A stretch of 12,413 bases of DNA from Desulfarculus sp. (lineage in GTDB: Bacteria > Desulfobacterota > Desulfarculia > Desulfarculales > Desulfarculaceae), in the NCBI GenBank assembly GCA_020216805.1, contig JAIWNN010000144.1, forward strand, positions 1-12,413, given 5' to 3'. Below the pieces are notes generated by a model. The model worked only from the letters and a program-made list of their open reading frames with translations, was not told the DNA's origin and searched no databases. Numbering within the stretch: position 1 is the first letter of the stretch; the number at the start of each line of letters is the position of its first letter. Shown one piece after another: positions 1 through 12,214 of the stretch. The position numbers and the translations under genes are program-made.

Positions 1-285
1 CAGCTCCTTCATGCGGATCAGCTTCTCGTCGATGACGCTCATGGCGCCCTCGGCGGTCTGAATCATGCTGATGGCGTCGCTGGCGTTGCGGATGCCCTGG
101 TTGATGACCGAAATATCGGAGCGCATCAACTCGCGAATGGCCAAACCGGCGGCGTCGTCGGCGGCCGAGTTGACCCGCAAGCCCGAGGACAACCGCTGGG
201 TGCTGGTGGACAACCGCCCATAGATCGTACTCAGGTTCCTGGCCGCGTTCATGGCCATCAAGTTGTGATTGACTACCAAGCTCAT
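1..285 (-). CDS. fliC: Flagellin, N-terminal part (cut by window edge)
   Basis: Flagellin is the subunit of the flagellar filament, exported through the flagellar type III apparatus and polymerised under the FliD cap. The 95 visible residues are the conserved D0/D1 N-terminal helices: they open MSLVVNHNLMAMNAARNL, followed by LSSGLRVNSAADDAAGLAIR and the coiled-coil stretch AISMIQTAEGAMSVIDEKL, which is diagnostic for the family. The start ATG (complement of 283-285) is supported by an AAGGAGG Shine-Dalgarno site 7 bases upstream. The variable centre and C-terminus lie outside the window, so length and glycosylation sites cannot be judged. A sigma-28-like promoter and a leader hairpin precede it. 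The divergent neighbour is a glycosyltransferase gene. Family identity is certain; the symbol could be fliC or flaA/flaB if there are several copies. Confidence 0.97.
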   Translation of the reverse strand, partial: MSLVVNHNLMAMNAARNLSTIYGRLSTSTQRLSSGLRVNSAADDAAGLAIRELMRSDISVINQGIRNASDAISMIQTAEGAMSVIDEKLIRMKEL

Positions 286-411: not shown

Positions 412-438
412 TTATCGGCCGGGCGAAAATCGCCTAAA
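412..438 (-). promoter_or_regulatory. Sigma-28 (FliA)-type promoter for flagellin
   Basis: The minus strand carries GCCGATAA (complement of 412-419), identical to the -10 consensus of flagellar sigma-28 promoters and correctly placed about 125 bases before the flagellin start. The -35 box at the usual spacing (431-438, TTTAGGCG) matches TAAAGTTT poorly, so the call rests on the -10 element and the gene it serves. A short palindrome (GGCGA-AAA-TCGCC, 422-434) occupies the spacer and could be a protein site or chance. Confidence 0.6.
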
Positions 439-615: not shown

Positions 616-3138
616 ATGCCGCCCGCGAAAGGCAAGCAAAAGCCACCGACCCCGTCCAAGCAAGGCCCGGCCCCCCACAACCGTCCCACCATCAGTTGCT
701 GCATGATGGTGAAGAACGAGGAGAAACGCCTGGCCACCGCCCTGGCCAGCGTGCGCCCCTGGATGGACGAGATCATCGTGGTGGACACCGGCAGCACCGA
801 CCGCACGGTGGAGATCGCCCAAGAATTCGGCGCCAAGATCTATCACCACCCCTGGGAGTACAACTTCTCGGTCCACCGCAACCAGTCCATCAGCTACGCC
901 AGCGGCGACTGGCTGTTCATCTTCGACGCCGACGAGGAGCTGGACCAGGAAACCGCCCCCCTGCTCTATGACGCGGTGCGGGCGCCAGTTGGCATCAACG
1001 CCTTCCTGGTCGAGCTGTACAACGACATCAGCGCCGGGGGAGAGACCTTCATCCTCCACCCGCGCCTGTTCCGCAATCACGTGGGTTTCCACTACGAGGG
1101 TCTGGTCCACAACCGGCCCATGGTCACCGGGCAGGTGGCCCGCATCGGAGTCAAGCTGTGGCATTACGGCTACAACGAGGACCCCGAGACCATGGAGGCC
1201 AAGCACCAGCGACGCTTGAGCATGATCCGCAAGTGGGCCGAGAACGAGCCGGACAACTTCCTGGCCCATTCCTACCTGGCCCACACCCTGGTCTCGCGTA
1301 TGGAGAGCGTGTCCGAGGCGGTGGACGAGGCCTACCGAGCCCTGGAGCTGTTGCAGCAAGAGCACGGCAAAGAGCGCCACTACCCCCACGTCTACTATCC
1401 TTTGATCAATGGCCTGGCCATCCTGGGCCGGGACCAGGAGGTGCTGCGCCACGCCCCGGAATGCCTGGCCAAGGTCCCGGTCTACCCCGATCCCCTGTTT
1501 TTCGTGGTCATGACTCACTACAAGCACCGCCGGTGGGAGGAGTTGGTCCAAGCCGCCGAGCAGTACTGGAAGCTGCAGATGGAGGCCAGGGCCAACCCGG
1601 ACGCCTTCATTTTTTTCGAGAACATGACCTTGGACCAGATGAACCTGGTCCTACTGCGCTGGGTGGTGGCCGAAGCCTTCTTGGGGCGCGAGGACCGAGC
1701 CGAGGAGCTTTTCGCCCGCATGGAGGAGTTCAACAAGCTGGAGCAGTGCAGCCAGCAGGCGTTGGCCACGCTTCTGGCCCATGATTTCACGACCCTGGTC
1801 CAACGCCTCAATCAAAGGGCCATGCGATCCCATCCGGAATGGGACTGGACCCGGCAGATCGAGCGCCTGACCCTGGACAAGCTGGAGAGTCGGCGAAGCG
1901 AGGATCTGGGCCGCCAGGGGCGCGAGGCCCTGGCGGCTGGCCGACCGACCGAGGCGGTGGATCTCCTCTCCCGGGCCGAGCGTCTGTCGCCGCTGTCTCC
2001 CGAGATCGTTTTCGACCTGGCCCAAGCCTTGGACCGCTCTGGACGGACCGAGCAGGCCATTGCCTGGATGATGCGGGGGCTGGACCTCTACCCCGGTCAG
2101 ATCGCGGCCTGGCGAAGGTTGGGAGACCACTATTTCGGTCGAGGTGAGTACGCCAGCGCCCAGGCCGCCTATGGCCGGCTGCTGATGCTCCAGCCCGCGG
2201 ATGAGACGGCCATCTCGCGCCTAGCGGTCTGCCAGCGCCGGCTGGCCCAGGCCCCACCCTGCGTGGCCGATCAGCCTCCCCGCCTGCTGGTCTTCCTGGT
2301 TGGCGGCATGAGCCTGGATCTGATCAAGTTGCCCGCGCCCCACTTCCTGATGGGCAAGGCCTGGGGAGGGCTGTTGCTGCCCGAGCCGGCCAAGGCCACC
2401 GACTATCCAGCCTGGGCCACCATCTACACCGGTCTGGAGCCGGATCGCCATGGTCTGACCAGCGAGACCGTAGGCGATCGCGCCCCCCGCCTGGATGACC
2501 TGGCCGTGTTGTCGGTCTGGGAGATCATGGCCCGGGAGCTCAGCCTGGGTCTGGTGGCGATTCCCTTGGGCTGCCCGCCGACCCGCCTGCCGGGCTGGGC
2601 CCTGGCTGGCTATCCTGGGGGCCGCCTGGCTCCGGATCTGGTTCATCCCCCGAGCCTGGCTGGTCAGGCGTTGGCCAGCGGCTACCGCACCGATTTCGTC
2701 CTCACCGATTACGAGCGCCAAATCGCCAGCCAGAAGCTGGAGACCGACGTGCGCCAGGAAGCCCTGCTCCACCAGGTGGAGCGCAACAAGCTAAGCACCG
2801 CCATGGGCCTGCCGGCGGTGGATGTGCTGGTGGTGGGACTCAACGCCTTGGAGTTGGCCCAGCAGACCTGGGAGCTGACCAATTACCGCACCTTCGCCGC
2901 CTATCAGCAGGTCTACGCCCTGATCGAGACCACCGTGGCCGCCCTACGGCCCGGCGCCTTCGCGGTCTTGAGCCAGCGGGGATACCATCACCAGAACCGC
3001 AAGCCCGACGCAGATGGCTTCTATTGCCTGTCCTGGTTGCGGGGAGAAGCGGGCAAGGCTAACGCCACCGACGTGGCCCCGGAACTACTTAAGCGGGTGG
3101 GGCTGGATCCCGGACTGCTGGGAAGCCCTCGGGGCTGA
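616..3138 (+). CDS. GT2 glycosyltransferase-TPR-degenerate AlkP-like fusion protein
   Basis: This 840-residue cytoplasmic-looking protein has no signal peptide or membrane segments. Residues 25-250 are a GT2 (GT-A fold) catalytic domain: TISCCMMVKNEE, the nucleotide-binding VVDTGSTDRT (D57), the DxD-type FDADEEL (D104/D106), and RLFRN followed by GLVHNRP, which matches the usual RLFR and late-histidine region. A helical linker leads to about three TPR repeats (roughly 433-543). Residues 556-835 resemble the phosphodiesterase/alkaline phosphatase superfamily (LLVFLVGG, then DYPAWATIYTGLEPDRHGL, then AVLSQRG). The family's metal-binding residues appear to be lost there, suggesting a pseudoenzyme. 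The start at 616 is chosen because GGAGG lies 5 bases upstream. Substrate is unknown; flagellin is the obvious candidate acceptor from position. The GT2 call is very secure, the C-terminal assignment moderate. Confidence 0.9.
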   Translation: MPPAKGKQKPPTPSKQGPAPHNRPTISCCMMVKNEEKRLATALASVRPWMDEIIVVDTGSTDRTVEIAQEFGAKIYHHPWEYNFSVHRNQSISYASGDWLFIFDADEELDQETAPLLYDAVRAPVGINAFLVELYNDISAGGETFILHPRLFRNHVGFHYEGLVHNRPMVTGQVARIGVKLWHYGYNEDPETMEAKHQRRLSMIRKWAENEPDNFLAHSYLAHTLVSRMESVSEAVDEAYRALELLQQEHGKERHYPHVYYPLINGLAILGRDQEVLRHAPECLAKVPVYPDPLFFVVMTHYKHRRWEELVQAAEQYWKLQMEARANPDAFIFFENMTLDQMNLVLLRWVVAEAFLGREDRAEELFARMEEFNKLEQCSQQALATLLAHDFTTLVQRLNQRAMRSHPEWDWTRQIERLTLDKLESRRSEDLGRQGREALAAGRPTEAVDLLSRAERLSPLSPEIVFDLAQALDRSGRTEQAIAWMMRGLDLYPGQIAAWRRLGDHYFGRGEYASAQAAYGRLLMLQPADETAISRLAVCQRRLAQAPPCVADQPPRLLVFLVGGMSLDLIKLPAPHFLMGKAWGGLLLPEPAKATDYPAWATIYTGLEPDRHGLTSETVGDRAPRLDDLAVLSVWEIMARELSLGLVAIPLGCPPTRLPGWALAGYPGGRLAPDLVHPPSLAGQALASGYRTDFVLTDYERQIASQKLETDVRQEALLHQVERNKLSTAMGLPAVDVLVVGLNALELAQQTWELTNYRTFAAYQQVYALIETTVAALRPGAFAVLSQRGYHHQNRKPDADGFYCLSWLRGEAGKANATDVAPELLKRVGLDPGLLGSPRG

Positions 3139-3166: not shown

Positions 3167-4342
3167 TCAGGGGAAGACCGGGACCACCCAGTTCTCCCCC
3201 GCCGCCAAGCGGCCCCACACCGCCCCCTGGGCGAAGTCCAGGCTCTGGGCGTTGATCCGGCGGCGTTGCTCCGGGTCATCGCGCCAGGCGGCCATGGCCC
3301 GGCGCTCCTCCTCCATCTCCCGCCAGATCAACACCATCCGGGTCATCTGCTCCTCGCCGCCGGCCAGAGCCTGGGCCCGATCCTGCCAGTCGGCCTGGGC
3401 CAAGGCGGGGTCATCCTCGATCCGGGCGGAGAGTTTGGCCAGCATGGACCGCAACTGGGTCCGATCCAGGCGGCAAGTCTGGGGGTAGCGGAAGGTGTAG
3501 GGATTGCTGAAGAGTAGATGGTGGCCGCCCGCCCCGGCCCAGAAGCGATAGCTGGCCATGGAATCCCAGATCAGCACCCGGCGGGGGTTCACCGCCGTGG
3601 CCAGGTGGGACAGGCCGCCCTCGCGACCCACGAATCCCGCTGCCCGTCCCAGGAGCCAGGCCAGATCCAGCAAGGTGGAATCGGGGTGGTCGGAGGGCAG
3701 GCAGATGTCAACTTCCGGAGTCAGCTCGCCATAATCCGGGGCCCCCACCGCCACCAGGTGGAAGCCGGGGCGCAGGCGGCGCAGCAACTCGATCCACCAC
3801 TCCCGGTCCTGCCAGAGGCTGTCGGCCCGGTCGCCGTGCAGGGGATAGACCACCAGCGTCGGCCGCTGACGGGCCAGCAGACCGGCCAGGCGGACGGGCC
3901 GGGCCGGGTCCACAAAGACGCTGGGGCGGTCGTCGGTGTTTTCCAGACCGTAGTGCAGGCTATGGGCCAGGATGGGATTGGCCCGCACCTGGTCCACCGG
4001 CCGCACCCCCTGGGGCAGACGCAAGGTGGCGGCGCTGACCCAGGTCACCGCCCGTCCGAAGCGGGCCACCGGCAGGGCCTGGATCCTCGGACCGCCGTCC
4101 GGCTCCAGCACCAGCTCCCGCACCAGGGGATGGCTTTCCACCAGCTCCCGGGCCGCGCCGGGCTGCATGAACAGCCGCACCGGACGTCCCTGATTGCGCA
4201 AAAGCCCCAGCACCATCAGGGTGTCGCCCAGGGCCAGGTTGGCCGGCGGCTGACAGCGATCGCCATCCAGCCCGATATAGATTGGGCAATCCAGGTACTC
4301 CACCGTGTTGCGCAGATGATACGGAATCTGGTGAATATCCAC
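3167..4342 (-). CDS. GT9-like glycosyltransferase (ADP-heptosyltransferase superfamily)
   Basis: This protein of about 391 residues has the GT-B features of GT9. An N-terminal LALGDTLMVLGLLRNQG (near residues 36-52) corresponds to the GD-x-(6)-P-type helix of heptosyltransferases, and VGREGGLSHLATAVNPRRV (near 238-256) corresponds to the nucleotide-sugar-binding DTGxSHLAAA motif, here EGGLSH. Family members usually move heptose or other sugars in the cytoplasm onto LPS core; some act on protein. After the motif there is a highly charged helical C-terminal extension of about 100 residues. The GTG start at 4342 is preferred because GGGAG lies 7 bases upstream. An in-frame TTG at 4420 is part of the -35 box of its promoter. 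It stands alone, converging on the GT2 gene with a 28-base gap. The acceptor is unknown; a role in flagellin glycosylation is inferred from location. Confidence 0.82.
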   Translation of the reverse strand: MDIHQIPYHLRNTVEYLDCPIYIGLDGDRCQPPANLALGDTLMVLGLLRNQGRPVRLFMQPGAARELVESHPLVRELVLEPDGGPRIQALPVARFGRAVTWVSAATLRLPQGVRPVDQVRANPILAHSLHYGLENTDDRPSVFVDPARPVRLAGLLARQRPTLVVYPLHGDRADSLWQDREWWIELLRRLRPGFHLVAVGAPDYGELTPEVDICLPSDHPDSTLLDLAWLLGRAAGFVGREGGLSHLATAVNPRRVLIWDSMASYRFWAGAGGHHLLFSNPYTFRYPQTCRLDRTQLRSMLAKLSARIEDDPALAQADWQDRAQALAGGEEQMTRMVLIWREMEEERRAMAAWRDDPEQRRRINAQSLDFAQGAVWGRLAAGENWVVPVFP

Positions 4343-4390
4343 CGCCGCGCTCCCGGTCTTTTGCCGCCGCCGGGCGGCTAACCCGGTGGC

Positions 4391-4420
4391 ATCATAGGCC
4401 GCGCCTGCGATGGCTGTCAA
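4391..4420 (-). promoter_or_regulatory. Housekeeping-type promoter for the GT9-like gene
   Basis: On the minus strand TTGACA (complement of 4415-4420) is followed after exactly 18 bases by TATGAT (complement of 4391-4396), a perfect -35 and a five-of-six -10. The predicted start near 4384 leaves a leader of about 40 bases to the GTG at 4342. This shows that the open frame upstream of 4342 is untranslated leader and promoter. Confidence 0.65.
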
Positions 4421-4607: not shown

Positions 4608-4659
4608 TAAAGGCTGATCGGAAGCTTCGCCTGCACTCCAGCCCCGGGACGTGAGGAAC

Positions 4660-7101
4660 ATGGCCACCAACGCCACCACCAGCAGCAGCCTCACCAACCT
4701 GACCTCGACGCTCCTCAGCGGGTCGATCAACTTCGCCGGCCTGGGCTCCGGCACCGATTTCAACAAGATCGTGGACCAGTTGGTGAAGATCGAGTCCATC
4801 CACAAGACCCGGATGGAGACTTGGAAGGCCACCTGGGAAGCCAAGATCACCTCGATGACGGCGCTTAACCAGCGCCTCAACGCGGTCGAGGAGGCGGCCG
4901 GGGCCATGGACACCAGCGCGGAGTTCATGGCGCTGAGCGCCTCCACCAGCTCCTCCTCGGTGGCCACCGCCACCACCACCACCGGCGCCACTCAGGGCGC
5001 CTACCGGCTGACAGTGGGTGGCAATGTGCCCCAGATCCTGCGCAGCGCCGGCCTGGCCAGCTCCTCCACCACCGCCGTCAGCGCCGGCGGCGGGACCATG
5101 ATCCTGCGGGTGGGCAGCACCGACTACAACGTCACCCTGACCGGGGGGGAGACCCTGGCCCAGTTGCGCGACGCCATCAACGCCCAGGCCTCGGGCGCGG
5201 TCACCGCCACCATCGAGGACGACGGCACCGGCAGCCGCAGCCAGCACCTGGTGCTGACCGCGGTCACCGGCGGCGACGCCGGCCGGGTGGACGTGGTGCA
5301 GAACCCCACCCTGCTCTCCTTCGACTCCCACGACGCGGCCCTGGCCTCCTCCTCCCTGGGAGTGGGCGTCTCGGTGGCCGGCCAATTCACCGGCGACAAG
5401 GCCGACGGCAGCGTGGCCACCTACAGCTTCACGATCCAGAACGTCAGCGGCGGCGGAACCGTGGGCGCCGACAGCTTCGAGATCTCCTGGACCCGTTCCT
5501 GGGACGGCGGTCCGGCCAGCACCGCGACGGTGATCACCGTGCCCGCCGACTACCAGCCCGGCGACAGCATTGAGGTCGAACAAGGCGTCTACATCCAGTT
5601 GCAAGCCGGCACGGTGGCCAACGGCCAGACCTTCACCGTCAACGCCTACGCCAACGACATCGATGACGCCGAGCTCCAGAAATGGTCCGGCACCAGCGCC
5701 GTGACCACCTCCGGCAACTACCAGGGCTCGGTCAGCAAGACCTACAGCTTCACCGTGATGTCCTCGGGCGCCATCGCCTCCGGCGGGGGCGACACCGTGG
5801 TCCTGCGTTGGACCGACTCCCTGGGGCGGACCGGCACCGTCAGCGTCAGCGACAGCGACCAGACCTACAGCGTCGAGCAGGGATTTTCCCTGAAGCTGAG
5901 CCAGGGCACCCTGGTCGCTGGCGACACCTTCCAGGTCAACGTCTTCGCTCCGGTGCAGCAGCAGGGCCAGGACAAAGGCCTGGCCCAGGCCACCAAGGTG
6001 GTGCACCAAGGCTTCGCCGACAAGGACACCACCGCCGTGACCACGGCCAACGCCACCTTCAGTTACACCTACAACGGCAATAAGATCGACGTCGGGGTGC
6101 CGGCCGGCACCACGCTTTCGCAGCTGGCGACCCTGATCAACGTCGATTCGGACAACCCCGGCGTCAACGCCAGCATCATCAACGACGGCCTGGGCCTGCC
6201 CAACAGCTACAAGCTGGTGCTGACCGGCAAGAACTCCGGTGCGCAATACCAGATCTCCAACGTCAGCCATGATTTCAGCGGCTCCAGCTTCAGCAGCGGC
6301 GGCGAGTTGGGCGGCGGCTTCGACGTGACCCAGTTGGCCACCAACAGCATGATCAAGGTGGACGGCTATCCCTCCGGCGCCTCCAACTACCTGCAACGCA
6401 GCAGCAACAGCATCGACGGCGTGATCAACGGCGTCACGCTCTCTCTGCACGACGCCGGCAGCACCGTAGTCACTGTCTCGGTGGACACCAACGCCATCAA
6501 GGACAAGATCGAGGCCCTGATCAACGCCGTCAACTACGCCCAGAGCTACATCCGCGAAGCCACCAAGTACGACTCGTCAACCGGCGAATCCGGCGTGCTC
6601 ATCGGCAACTACTCCTACTACATCATCAAATCGCGTCTGGACTCCACTCTCAACCAGAGCATCGCGGGGCTGGTGGACGGCCAGGACACCTTCACCCACC
6701 TGAGCCAGATCGGCATCACCACCGACCCCAACAACGAAGGCACCTGGACCATCGACAACACCATGCTGTCCAAGGCTCTGGCCCTTGACCCGGAGGCGGT
6801 GGCCAACCTGTTCATCAACAACCCCACCAAGGGCAGCACCGGCGCCGCCCAGCGGGTCTACAAGGAGACCAAGGCCCTGACCGATTCCAAGACGGGCATG
6901 CTCAACGTTCTGATCGAAAACTACAACGACATCATCACCGATATCGACAAGCGCATCGAAAGCGAGGAAAAGCGCCTGGAGCTGTACCGCCAGCGCCAGA
7001 TCGAGCGTTTCGCCCGATTGGAGGCGACCCTGTCCACCCTCAACGCGCAGTCCAGCGCGGTGGATAGCGCCATCAAGCAGTTGCCGGGCAACAAAGACTA
7101 A
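4660..7101 (+). CDS. fliD: Flagellar filament capping protein FliD (hook-associated protein 2)
   Basis: FliD forms the cap at the filament tip under which flagellin folds. Its N-terminus (residues 20-100, with GLGSGTDFNKIVDQLVKIES and a long helix) and C-terminus (about 588-810, with GVINGVTLSL, then FTHLSQIGITTD, then the terminal coiled coil ending TLSTLNAQSSAVDSAIKQL) are typical. At 813 residues it is much longer than common FliD proteins (about 450-700). Between the ends lie two flagellin hook-IN-type motifs (about 155-190 and 474-530) flanking a duplicated beta-rich unit (255-331 and 362-430). The ATG at 4660 is chosen over the GTG at 4651, because GAGGA precedes it and the GTG lacks an SD; the spacing is short (2 bases), so the start could be off by three codons. 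It is expressed from a sigma-54 promoter, with fliS downstream. Confidence 0.96.
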   Translation: MATNATTSSSLTNLTSTLLSGSINFAGLGSGTDFNKIVDQLVKIESIHKTRMETWKATWEAKITSMTALNQRLNAVEEAAGAMDTSAEFMALSASTSSSSVATATTTTGATQGAYRLTVGGNVPQILRSAGLASSSTTAVSAGGGTMILRVGSTDYNVTLTGGETLAQLRDAINAQASGAVTATIEDDGTGSRSQHLVLTAVTGGDAGRVDVVQNPTLLSFDSHDAALASSSLGVGVSVAGQFTGDKADGSVATYSFTIQNVSGGGTVGADSFEISWTRSWDGGPASTATVITVPADYQPGDSIEVEQGVYIQLQAGTVANGQTFTVNAYANDIDDAELQKWSGTSAVTTSGNYQGSVSKTYSFTVMSSGAIASGGGDTVVLRWTDSLGRTGTVSVSDSDQTYSVEQGFSLKLSQGTLVAGDTFQVNVFAPVQQQGQDKGLAQATKVVHQGFADKDTTAVTTANATFSYTYNGNKIDVGVPAGTTLSQLATLINVDSDNPGVNASIINDGLGLPNSYKLVLTGKNSGAQYQISNVSHDFSGSSFSSGGELGGGFDVTQLATNSMIKVDGYPSGASNYLQRSSNSIDGVINGVTLSLHDAGSTVVTVSVDTNAIKDKIEALINAVNYAQSYIREATKYDSSTGESGVLIGNYSYYIIKSRLDSTLNQSIAGLVDGQDTFTHLSQIGITTDPNNEGTWTIDNTMLSKALALDPEAVANLFINNPTKGSTGAAQRVYKETKALTDSKTGMLNVLIENYNDIITDIDKRIESEEKRLELYRQRQIERFARLEATLSTLNAQSSAVDSAIKQLPGNKD

Positions 7102-7124: not shown

Positions 7125-7155
7125 ACGACCCATGACCAAGGAAGGGATGGGACTC

Positions 7156-7599
7156 ATGTTGAACTACGCGCAAAACCAATACCGGAAGACCCAGGTGGCC
7201 ACCGTGGACCGCGGACGGCTGATCGTCCTGCTCTACGAGGGGGCCATCAGCTTCCTGATCAAGGCCAAGACCTGCCTGACCGAGGACGACATCCCGGCCT
7301 GCGCATCCTTGATCAATCGCGCCCAAGACATCATCGACGAGCTCAACGCCTCGCTGAACATGGAGTTGGGAGGAGAGATCGCCGCCAATCTGCGCCGGCT
7401 GTACCTCTACATGGGCGACCGCCTGGTGCGGGCCAAGATTCGCCGCGAGGAAGCGCCGATTGACGAGGTGATCCGCATCCTGACCAGCCTGAACGAGGCC
7501 TGGCGCGAAGCCCTGGCCAAGCCCGAGGCCCAGGAGGTTTTGAGCCGCCAGCCGGTCCAACCCACCACCACCCAGGCCCGAGGTGGGGTGCGGATCTGA
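7156..7599 (+). CDS. fliS: Flagellin export chaperone FliS
   Basis: FliS binds the C-terminal helix of flagellin in the cytoplasm, prevents early polymerisation and delivers it to the export gate. From the chosen start the protein has 147 residues, near the usual 125-145, and begins MLNYAQNQYRKTQVATVDRG, the family N-terminus, followed by LIVLLYEGAISFLIKAK and the helix around IIDELNASLNMELGGEIAANL with LRRLYLYM. The last 20 residues are a proline/threonine-rich tail. ATGs at 7132, 7147 and 7156 are all possible; AAGGAAGG at 7138-7145 could serve 7147 (4-base spacing from AAGGA) or 7156 (10 bases). The family N-terminus favours 7156. It is co-transcribed with fliD, the usual gene order. Confidence 0.95.
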   Translation: MLNYAQNQYRKTQVATVDRGRLIVLLYEGAISFLIKAKTCLTEDDIPACASLINRAQDIIDELNASLNMELGGEIAANLRRLYLYMGDRLVRAKIRREEAPIDEVIRILTSLNEAWREALAKPEAQEVLSRQPVQPTTTQARGGVRI

Positions 7600-9500: not shown

Positions 9501-9938
9501 TCAAGCGGTGCGCGAGAGCTTGTCCGGCCCCCGTCCAGCCAGAGGCGCCGGACGGTAGGCGGAGAAAAGCTGCCGGCCGGTCTCCAGCCGTCCCAACTCC
9601 TGGCGCATCTCGGCCATCTCCCGCTCCAGGAGTCGGACGGACTCGCGGTCCAAGGAGTTGAGGCGCTCGGACAGTACCCGCAGCTTTTCCAGCAGGGACT
9701 GGGCCTCGGCGGCCTCGGCCGGATCCAGGCCGGCCAGAACCGCCTCCCAGTCGCGCCAGACCGGCTGCAGGCGGCGATGGCGACTCATCACCCGGCGGAA
9801 CACGATCTGGCGACGAGCCATGAGGTCATTGAGGGCCTCTTGCTGGTGGTCCCGCAACAGGCCGCGCCCGGCCAGGGCCAGGCCGGCCAGCTCGTCCTGG
9901 TCCCGGGTCAGCTCCCGCAATTGGTTGAGGAGCCGCAT
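9501..9938 (-). CDS. FlgN/FliT-like putative flagellar export chaperone
   Basis: A 145-residue, almost wholly helical, charged protein with heptad-like leucines (LLNQLRELTRDQDELAGLAL, then LLRDHQQEALNDLMARRQ, then LLEKLRVLSERLNSL). It ends in a short basic tail after FSAYRP. Size, helical pattern, the early L-L motif and the QQEAL-x-LMARRQ segment resemble FlgN and FliT, the cytoplasmic export chaperones of hook-associated proteins and FliD. It has no catalytic motif, signal peptide or membrane segment. Its ATG overlaps the stop codon of the preceding gene in a TGATG, so the two are translationally coupled. Assignment to FlgN rather than FliT cannot be made by eye; it could also be an unrelated small coiled-coil protein. 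Confidence 0.65.
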   Translation of the reverse strand: MRLLNQLRELTRDQDELAGLALAGRGLLRDHQQEALNDLMARRQIVFRRVMSRHRRLQPVWRDWEAVLAGLDPAEAAEAQSLLEKLRVLSERLNSLDRESVRLLEREMAEMRQELGRLETGRQLFSAYRPAPLAGRGPDKLSRTA

Positions 9939-10546
9939 CAGTGGGCCTGCCGGCGCAGGCGGGGCATCAGCTCCGACCAGGCCTGGAGCTCGTCCCTGAG
10001 ATCGTGCTCCAGGATGTCGGCCAGGAGGATCCAGTCCTCCTGCTCCTGGGATTGCAGCATCTCGGAGATCAAGCCGTTGAGGCGGGCCTGGCTCTGGGCC
10101 AGGCTGGGCAGACCGTCCAGGCCCTGGGCGCTGTCCAGCCGCAGGGTCTCGCAGGCCCCGTCCACCAGTTGCAGGAACAGATGCAGGGTCTCCAGCAGAG
10201 AGCTGTATTGCTGATTGGCCTCGCGGTCGTCGGCCACCCTGAACAGCTCGGCCACCTGGGGCAGCGATCCGGTCATGGCCTGCAGGTAGGCCCTGGCGTT
10301 ATCCAGGAAATGCAGCGCCACCTGCCGGGCGTCCATGGTCTCCAGCTCCAGGTGGTCGATGGCCTCCCGAGGCAGGCTGCCAGCCGGTCCCTGCTGGCTG
10401 AGTTCATAGGGCCGGCCGTTGACCTTCAGCTCCACCAGGGTGCGGTCGGCCAGTTCCTCGCCGCTCAGCAGGTGGTCCAACATCTCGCCCAGGTTGGCCC
10501 CCCTGGGCTCCACCGCCAATGGCTTGCCGTCCATCCAGACTTCCAT
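9938..10546 (-). CDS. Uncharacterised flagellar-locus protein, coupled to the chaperone-like gene
   Basis: I do not recognise this 202-residue protein. Residues 1-70 look beta-rich, with two strand-turn-strand units each containing a related turn (MEVWMDGKPLAV and LVELKVNGRPYEL) and ending DHLELETMDARQ, suggesting a small beta-grasp-like fold. Residues 72-200 are helical (ALHFLDNARAYLQAM, LLETLHLFLQLVDGACETL, and the acidic DWILLADILEHDLRDELQ). No signal peptide, membrane segment or enzyme motif is visible. ATG at 10546 is chosen because GGGAG lies 8 bases upstream; ATG at 10552 and GTG at 10555 are too close to it. The stop overlaps the next start (TGATG), implying stoichiometric production with the chaperone-like protein. 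A cytoplasmic role in filament assembly or modification is inferred. Confidence 0.85.
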   Translation of the reverse strand: MEVWMDGKPLAVEPRGANLGEMLDHLLSGEELADRTLVELKVNGRPYELSQQGPAGSLPREAIDHLELETMDARQVALHFLDNARAYLQAMTGSLPQVAELFRVADDREANQQYSSLLETLHLFLQLVDGACETLRLDSAQGLDGLPSLAQSQARLNGLISEMLQSQEQEDWILLADILEHDLRDELQAWSELMPRLRRQAH

Positions 10547-10585
10547 GTCCATCACTCCCTTTGTCAGTCAGCCCAGCCGTCGCCC

Positions 10586-12214
10586 TCAGTTGCGAGCCGC
10601 CTCGGCCGGGGCCATGATTTCCAACAACGCGGCCGCCGGATCGTCGGTTGCGCCGGGCAGAGGCAGATCCTCCCGCGCCGGTCCCAGGCAACGCTCCAGC
10701 AAGGCTTCCATGCGGTGATAGTAGGTGTGTTGGGCCAGCACCCGGCGGCGTCCCGCCTGGGCGATGGCCGCGCGCTGCTCGGGATAGCGCCGGTAGTGCT
10801 CCACCATCTCGAGAAGCTGCGCCTCGTTCTCGAAGACCGCCACCTCGCGACCCGGCTCCAGGAACCGCTCCAGGCCCCGCACCCGGTCCACCAGCATGAA
10901 GCCGCCGCAGGCCGGCACCTCCAGGGTGCGGGGGTTGACCCAGTCCGCGCCTTCCGGACGATGGGCATCCTGGGGCGAGGAGTGCAGATTGAGCACGATC
11001 TCGCAGCCGTTGTAGACCTTGACCACCTCCTCGGCCTCCAGGTAGCGCTCCTCGGCCAGATGAGGGGCCAGGGCCTGGCTGCCGGTCCAGCCCACCCCCC
11101 ACAGGCGCAGGGGCAGACCCCGCCCCACCAGGTCGGCGAAGATTCGCCGCCGGTTGGCGTAGCCCGCGCCCATGAAGCCCACCACCCCGCCGTAGCGCTG
11201 GCGGTCGGCGGGGCTGAGGCTCAAGGGCCGGTGACAGGGCGGATGGGCGGCCATGGGCAGGAAATCATGCTCCACCCCCAGGCGCTCCAGCTCGGCGCTC
11301 AGCTCCGGCCCCTGGATGTGGAAGAAATAGTCGTAGGCTCCGGCCACCTCGCGGAAATAGGGCATGGCCCGGAAGTCCTCCACGAACCAAAAGGCGATGG
11401 GGGCGCCCAGGGCGCGCAGATCCTTGAGGGCCCGGCGATCCAGGGGGGCCTGGGCCAGGGCCAGCACCAGATCGGGCTGGAAGACCTCGGCCTCCAGGAC
11501 GGTCAGCTCACCCAAAAAGCGCATCAGGGGGGCGTAGACCCGATCCACCCGCTCCGGCGTCGCGCCGCAGGCGTACATCCTCTCGTGCAGGGGTTTGAGC
11601 TGGTCCAGGGGGGCCAGGCGGGTCTGACAGCCCAGGGCGATCAGCGCCTCGGCGCACCAGTGGGCCACATTGAGCGAGCCGCCCCAGACCGGCGGCACCA
11701 CCAGCACCCGGGGCCGATCCGGTCGGAGTCGGCGGGTCGACGGCTCGTTGAGGCGGCGAGCCAGGGTCTCGGCCGCGCCGGGATGCAGGCGTGACTCGGC
11801 GCGATGGATGAGCAGACCCCGGCCGCGCAGGTCGCCCAGATCGGCGGGATCCACCACCAGGCGCAGGCTGGGCAGCAGAGCGGTGAGGTCGCGGCCGGCC
11901 AGGGCCACGCGCAACAGCCGCGGATCCGGCTCCCAAACCACCAGGTCGCGGCCGGCCAGGGGCTCCAGATGATAACCCAGGCCAAAGCCCAACACCACCA
12001 GGGAACCATCAGGGGCTTGGGCCGCCTGCCGCCGGCCCTCGGCCGCCGGGTCCACCCCGGAGGTGAGGCTCAAACCTCCCAGCTTGAGGCTGGGCGCGCC
12101 CTGGCGGCTGGGCGAGACCAGGGCCTCGGGGTGAGGCGGGGTCCGCTCCAGGCGACGGGCCAGGTCGGGCTGGCGCTGGGCCAGGACGGCCAGGTTGGCG
12201 GCAAAAAAGTCCAC
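10586..12214 (-). CDS. CgeB-like glycosyltransferase with Maf-like N-terminal domain
   Basis: A 542-residue protein. Residues 70-140 (SLVVLGFGLGYHLEPLA, DLVVWEPDPRLLRVAL, LRLVVDP) follow the pattern of the N-terminal nucleotide-binding-like domain of Maf (motility accessory factor) proteins, which modify flagellin. From about residue 168 it matches the CgeB/GT-B type: RVLVVPPVWGGSLNVAHWC, FQPDLVLALAQ, IAFWFVEDFR, YDYFFHIQ, GFMGAGYANRRRIF, VLNLHSS, and the C-terminal NPRTLEVPACGGFMLVDRV with EVAVFENEAQLLEMVEHY. CgeB-type enzymes are glycosyltransferase-like proteins, first described with the Bacillus spore coat. The GTG start is supported by GGAGA 6 bases upstream. It is followed after 39 bases by the unknown 202-residue protein. 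A flagellin-modifying role is inferred from the Maf-like part and the neighbours. Confidence 0.88.
   Translation of the reverse strand: MDFFAANLAVLAQRQPDLARRLERTPPHPEALVSPSRQGAPSLKLGGLSLTSGVDPAAEGRRQAAQAPDGSLVVLGFGLGYHLEPLAGRDLVVWEPDPRLLRVALAGRDLTALLPSLRLVVDPADLGDLRGRGLLIHRAESRLHPGAAETLARRLNEPSTRRLRPDRPRVLVVPPVWGGSLNVAHWCAEALIALGCQTRLAPLDQLKPLHERMYACGATPERVDRVYAPLMRFLGELTVLEAEVFQPDLVLALAQAPLDRRALKDLRALGAPIAFWFVEDFRAMPYFREVAGAYDYFFHIQGPELSAELERLGVEHDFLPMAAHPPCHRPLSLSPADRQRYGGVVGFMGAGYANRRRIFADLVGRGLPLRLWGVGWTGSQALAPHLAEERYLEAEEVVKVYNGCEIVLNLHSSPQDAHRPEGADWVNPRTLEVPACGGFMLVDRVRGLERFLEPGREVAVFENEAQLLEMVEHYRRYPEQRAAIAQAGRRRVLAQHTYYHRMEALLERCLGPAREDLPLPGATDDPAAALLEIMAPAEAARN

Follow-up and report, generated by a model that had tools for sequence, protein, structure and literature searches.

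What does a complete alkaline-phosphatase-like (AlkP) domain do at the end of a glycosyltransferase that is encoded beside flagellar genes? The question is posed by one gene in a 12,413-nucleotide stretch of Desulfarculus sp. DNA (contig JAIWNN010000144.1; hereafter, the window), whose 840-aa product consists of a glycosyltransferase family 2 (GT2) domain, a helical part, a tetratricopeptide-repeat (TPR) region and a C-terminal domain of AlkP fold, in that order (Table 1). An earlier interpretation made from the letters alone (the sequence-only reading) had proposed the order GT2, TPR, AlkP fold; Pfam matches for the GT2 and TPR parts, and fold and homology for the AlkP part, now support it. 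How cytoplasmic glycosyltransferases select flagellin is not fully known, and the known cases, as far as the excerpts consulted describe them, rely on TPRs or on a helper protein. In this protein a complete AlkP domain has been joined to such an enzyme, has lost its catalytic residues and persists in the flagellated genomes of a single family: a GT2-TPR enzyme is fused to a real, conserved pseudo-AlkP, in a flagellar locus. We read the whole as a glycosyltransferase that modifies flagellin in the cytoplasm and has recruited a non-catalytic pseudo-AlkP binding module, and give this reading a probability of roughly 0.55.

The C-terminal domain and its former catalytic site

The full-length structure model gives the C-terminal domain an AlkP fold, and the fold claim rests on that model; a model of the domain alone was poor, and a fold search with it returned no match at E ≤ 0.001. 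Comparison by hhalign with an intact short AlkP family (P0047-P0050) gave E 1.6e-28 over 277 columns, and AlkPs of the same genome match the domain at 2.1e-7 and 3.1e-5. The PF01663 cut-off of 23 bits was reached neither by the window protein (18.4 bits, stretch 594-622) nor by the domain alone (20.7 bits), and a domain fragment (P0042) scored 34.8 bits. Sequence searches of the PDB gave nothing significant with the domain (best E 0.12 and 0.41) and nothing at E ≤ 0.01 with the intact short AlkP family; NCBIfam and PHROGs held no match for the domain. Chance resemblance to AlkP is ruled out by the profile and fold comparisons, and it is nearly certain that the C-terminal domain is a pseudo-AlkP.

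All seven AlkP catalytic positions are replaced in the window protein (Table 1), on which hhalign and the alignment with the intact family agree, and all seven residues are present in each of the four intact short AlkPs. Conservation was assessed in an alignment (A1) of the window protein with 39 of 40 homolog matches, P0021 being excluded (no GT2 part); four catalytic positions are missing from the truncated P0039, and P0040 is gapped at one. Among these 40 sequences, 21 retain none of the seven catalytic residues, 15 retain one and 4 retain two. The loss of the metal ligands claimed in the sequence-only reading holds in these alignments, as does its conservation across homologs, which that reading had named as a check: the three Asp and three His of a two-metal site are represented by G563, E746, Q750, Q787, R788 and P797. 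The same reading had the nucleophile region as kept, which proved wrong, the nucleophile being lost too: position 596 is Asp in 22/40 sequences, Ser in 7/40 and Thr in none. Intact Asp/His ligands elsewhere in the domain, named beforehand as the finding that would speak against the loss, were also sought. Besides H576 and H612 no His of the domain is conserved in A1, and at the two positions of the window protein's HH (791-792) just 3 and 6 of the 40 sequences have His, which rules out metal ligands elsewhere.

The domain is a dead NPP-type AlkP, with the fold kept and the nucleophile and two-metal site gone. The acid at 746 and the frequent Asp at 596 might suit a domain that remains an enzyme with an unusual site, but every homolog in A1 lacks both His at 750 and Asp at 787, Ser or Thr at 596 is rare and conserved His are confined to the two named above, so that this explanation is scarcely credible. 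Xac NPP and the ENPPs (7n1s, 2gsn, 9nir), which are enzymes, differ from the pseudo-AlkP domain, where all seven catalytic positions are replaced instead. If automatic annotation labelled proteins of this kind PF01663, it would give a false idea of their activity. The fusion protein is a clean case of a pseudoenzyme that can be set against an intact sister family, and it yields a testable claim on acceptor recognition; within our partial coverage of the literature, no title dealt with a glycosyltransferase carrying a fused pseudo-AlkP.

Table 1. Features of the window (positions in nucleotides; residue numbers refer to the fusion protein).
Feature	Position	Strand	Basis or remark
GT2-TPR-pseudo-AlkP protein, 840 aa	616..3138	+	open reading frame
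GT2 domain, residues 27-133 (Pfam stretch)	694..1014	+	PF00535 79.0 bits, cut-off 23.3
GT2 acidic motif DADE, residues 104-107	925..936	+	invariant in 40/40 aligned sequences
TPR region, residues 434-531	1915..2208	+	TPR families above cut-offs (Pfam)
Pseudo-AlkP domain, residues 551-840	2266..3135	+	
G563 in place of Asp of GxDG	2302..2304	+	alignment with intact family
D596 in place of Thr/Ser nucleophile	2401..2403	+	alignment with intact family
E746 in place of metal-binding Asp	2851..2853	+	acid retained in 37/40
Q750 in place of metal-binding His	2863..2865	+	alignment; E746/Q750 correspond to D-x-x-x-H pair
Q787-R788 in place of Asp-His of DHG	2974..2979	+	Q 39/39, R 35/38
P797 in place of last metal-binding His	3004..3006	+	His in 3/39 homologs with a residue there
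Flagellin gene, first 95 codons, clipped by window edge, divergent from fusion gene	1..285	-	92.6% identical to residues 1-95 of L060 flagellin
FliD	4651..7101	+	NCBIfam FliD models, best 141.5 bits, below equivalog cut-offs
FliS	7132..7599	+	TIGR00208 98.6 bits, above cut-off

The glycosyltransferase part and its flagellar setting

Both the PF00535 score and the invariant acidic metal motif (Table 1) place the N-terminal part in GT2. Its nearest solved glycosyltransferase domain by sequence is that of GmaR (E 1.1e-32, residues 22-211), and its top NCBIfam match is SunS (TIGR04195 equivalog), at 94.7 bits far under the cut-off of 350; judged by its sequence, this is a GT2 domain of GmaR/SunS type that should be active. 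GmaR (PDB 22ao), which is bifunctional, acting as flagellin O-GlcNAc transferase and anti-repressor, resembles the fusion protein in this GT2 similarity and in its flagellar role. Unlike in GmaR, TPRs and a complete pseudo-AlkP follow the GT2 domain. The C-terminal part of GmaR binds a motility repressor, and a similar arm could be imagined here, with GT2 glycosylating flagellin and the C-terminal domain binding a regulator or an export part of the flagellar programme. The nearest solved domain and the flagellar gene context would agree with this, but the solved GmaR chain (204 aa) is the glycosyltransferase domain only, the comparison covers that part alone and none of the window's genes was identified as a regulator; we regard such an arm as unlikely. 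The glycocin S-glycosyltransferases SunS and ThuS (7msp, 7msn, 7msk) are set apart from the fusion protein by the SunS score given above, by its extra TPRs and pseudo-AlkP and by its flagellar setting.

FlmG of Caulobacter likewise unites a TPR part and a glycosyltransferase for flagellin in one protein, and its TPR part binds flagellins and is needed for efficient flagellin glycosylation; in the part of the source consulted, its TPRs are N-terminal and no AlkP domain is mentioned, the comparison being by description and leaving the catalytic domain aside (PMC7591256). In C. sporogenes, a flagellar island encodes TPR-bearing GT2 proteins for which a role as flagellin glycosyltransferases is predicted; work cited in the same source describes one Maf that relies on a TPR domain and a second that requires the helper GlfM, again as far as its consulted part goes (PMC13317340).

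The flagellar setting that the sequence-only reading had implied is supported by the divergent flagellin gene, which starts at window position 285 on the minus strand, and by fliD and fliS; the L060 flagellin used for comparison matches PF00669 and PF00700. Gene context was compared in 11 relative loci, two of which (L063 and L066) start inside the fusion gene, so that nine have upstream sequence. Flagellin lies near the fusion gene in seven of these nine (L056-L061, L065; about 2 kb away in L061), and the four relatives' flagellins that were scanned, two of L059 and two of L060, all match Flagellin_N and _C. In 6/11 loci (L057-L061, L065) the stretch also includes both fliD and fliS. Encoding together with flagellin genes, taken here as a mark of flagellin glycosyltransferases, is found in the window and in those seven relatives.

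In the family (20 genomes), the domain occurs in 12 genomes, the same 12 that carry fliS, and the remaining eight have neither. Across the class (63 genomes, E ≤ 1e-20) it occurs in 12, all within the family, and in 0/43 genomes outside it. A scan of the phylum (395 genomes, with no more than 6 candidates scored in each) confined whole-domain matches to the family; all remaining matches were partial, no stronger than 1.8e-21, and fell on other AlkP-like frames. A search for domain-length homologs yielded six proteins, which are probably fragments because all lie on contigs of ≤ 2716 bases, and no free-standing pseudo-domain was shown by that search.

Proposed function of the fusion

Starting from what was computed, namely the fold, the seven replaced positions, the conserved loss, the intact GT2 motif and the flagellar context, we propose that a cytoplasmic protein would glycosylate flagellin, its presumed acceptor, via the N-terminal GT2 domain. 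The helical and TPR parts would hold the protein acceptor, the TPRs putatively binding flagellin. The dead domain may dock flagellin, or a sugar already on flagellin, as a candidate ligand close to the GT2 site; the former pocket, which has lost its metals and in which the pair Gln787-Arg788 is fixed, may be the place of contact. In a more specific version, the metal-free Gln-Arg pocket of this former phosphodiesterase would read a flagellin glycan that is charged, being phosphate-bearing or acidic, and so steer the fused GT2, which is possible but rather doubtful. Phosphate-bearing flagellin glycans are reported for C. difficile in the consulted parts of two papers (PMC4441256, PMC8861647), and because of them a phospho-glycan ligand for the former phosphodiesterase is thinkable by analogy, no more. 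If true, a charged-glycan reader would be a phosphatase turned into a lectin-like module, and bacterial protein glycosylation would have a new means of setting its specificity.

Constraint on the domain was compared with that on the other parts of the protein. Entropy averages 1.58 in the domain, 2.00 in the TPR region, 1.90 in the helical part and 1.02 in GT2; dN/dS, from the one pair of the window and an 88%-identical relative, is 0.23 for the domain and the TPR region, 0.10 for the helical part and 0.08 for GT2. Conserved motifs specific to the domain include ERNK (722-725) and GFYCLSWLRGE (801-811). A decaying remnant is ruled out by the stop-free frame, the dN/dS in this pair and the conserved columns. 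Conservation ranks among the 290 domain columns are lower for four former catalytic positions, i.e., G563 (199), D596 (182), Q750 (236) and P797 (208).

Several points weigh against the proposed binding module. Drift is seen in four of the seven former catalytic columns (ranks 182-236/290), and the pocket as a whole is not kept. The dN/dS of the domain is three times that of GT2; the domain is constrained, but less than GT2. No flagellin lies near the gene in L062 and L064, among the nine loci with upstream sequence. Finally, the co-occurrence of the domain with fliS may reflect a single event, because the eight genomes without either all belong to one genus. The drifting columns, together with domain-less paralogs that mark the domain as modular, would also fit a purely structural part that stabilises or dimerises the protein and has no ligand; this is quite unlikely, since an invariant Q787 and a nearly invariant R788 at the old metal site are more than a scaffold would need. 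The enzyme might instead act on another acceptor, a different surface protein or glycan, and stand beside the flagellin gene without modifying flagellin. The L062 and L064 copies distant from flagellin, and an intact sister AlkP in a polysaccharide cluster (G075), point that way, but the gene context and the co-occurrence with fliS argue against it and leave this alternative improbable.

Two further copies were observed. In G004 (C97, locus L064; P0040) there is a divergent whole-protein copy, 37% identical, with an altered SQRG motif and no flagellin or fliD match nearby. A domain fragment (positions 175-278) with one internal stop lies at G002:C37:48130-48438; the same genome carries a complete copy as well.

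Origin of the fusion and neighbouring genes

Five further GT2 frames in the family (G003, G006 twice, G007 and G010) are 390-511 aa long and 34-39% identical, that of G007 with one stop; their alignments stop at residue 378-482, and none of them matches the domain. In G031, which belongs to a different family, flagellin and fliS share a locus with the gene of a 396-aa GT2-TPR protein that lacks the domain. The intact short AlkPs P0047-P0050 are homologous to the pseudo-domain and have G-[FTY]-Y around the C-terminal strand in common with it; unlike it, they are separate proteins of 360-365 aa with a full catalytic set. The intact short AlkP of G075 sits among GT2, epimerase, Wzx-like, hexapeptide, glycosyltransferase and Wzy_C genes, a polysaccharide cluster. 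From the domain-less GT2 frames, the G031 locus and this intact AlkP, we infer that the fusion probably arose when a flagellar GT2-TPR enzyme acquired an AlkP domain, ahead of the divergence of the family's flagellated members. An unrooted tree was built from 12 pseudo-domains chosen from A1, the four intact short AlkPs and 11 others (one duplicating P0047), these being the 11 of 25 loci tried that passed a motif filter. It resolved three groups, and all 12 pseudo-domains fell into a single clade (support 1.000) that sits on a long stem; the intact AlkP group of origin is not settled by this unrooted tree. Separately, fliD and two small proteins of the G031 locus were assigned by eye only, and a 1208-aa open frame (L080/L085, G021:C117) holds two separate GT2-helical matches.

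Within the window, sigma-54-like sites (13 against 15.5 expected) and sigma-28-like sites (2 against 1.5 expected), the latter scored with the sigma-28 consensus, are no more numerous than chance. A sigma-28-like site at 412-438 (-), upstream of the flagellin start, contains an exact GCCGATAA. At 3167-4420 (-) lies a GT9-like protein below the Pfam cut-off, which adjoins the fusion gene in five relatives and has no match in L059. A 145-aa protein at 9501-9938 (-) matches FliT weakly (22.0 bits, cut-off 29.5) and is conserved next to the relatives' fliS, and a 205-aa protein at 9938-10555 (-), with no Pfam match, is conserved in four relative loci (L057-L060). The gene at 10586-12214 (-) encodes a glycosyltransferase with a Maf N-terminal match (PF20157, 36.7 bits) and a PF13524 match (122.7 bits).
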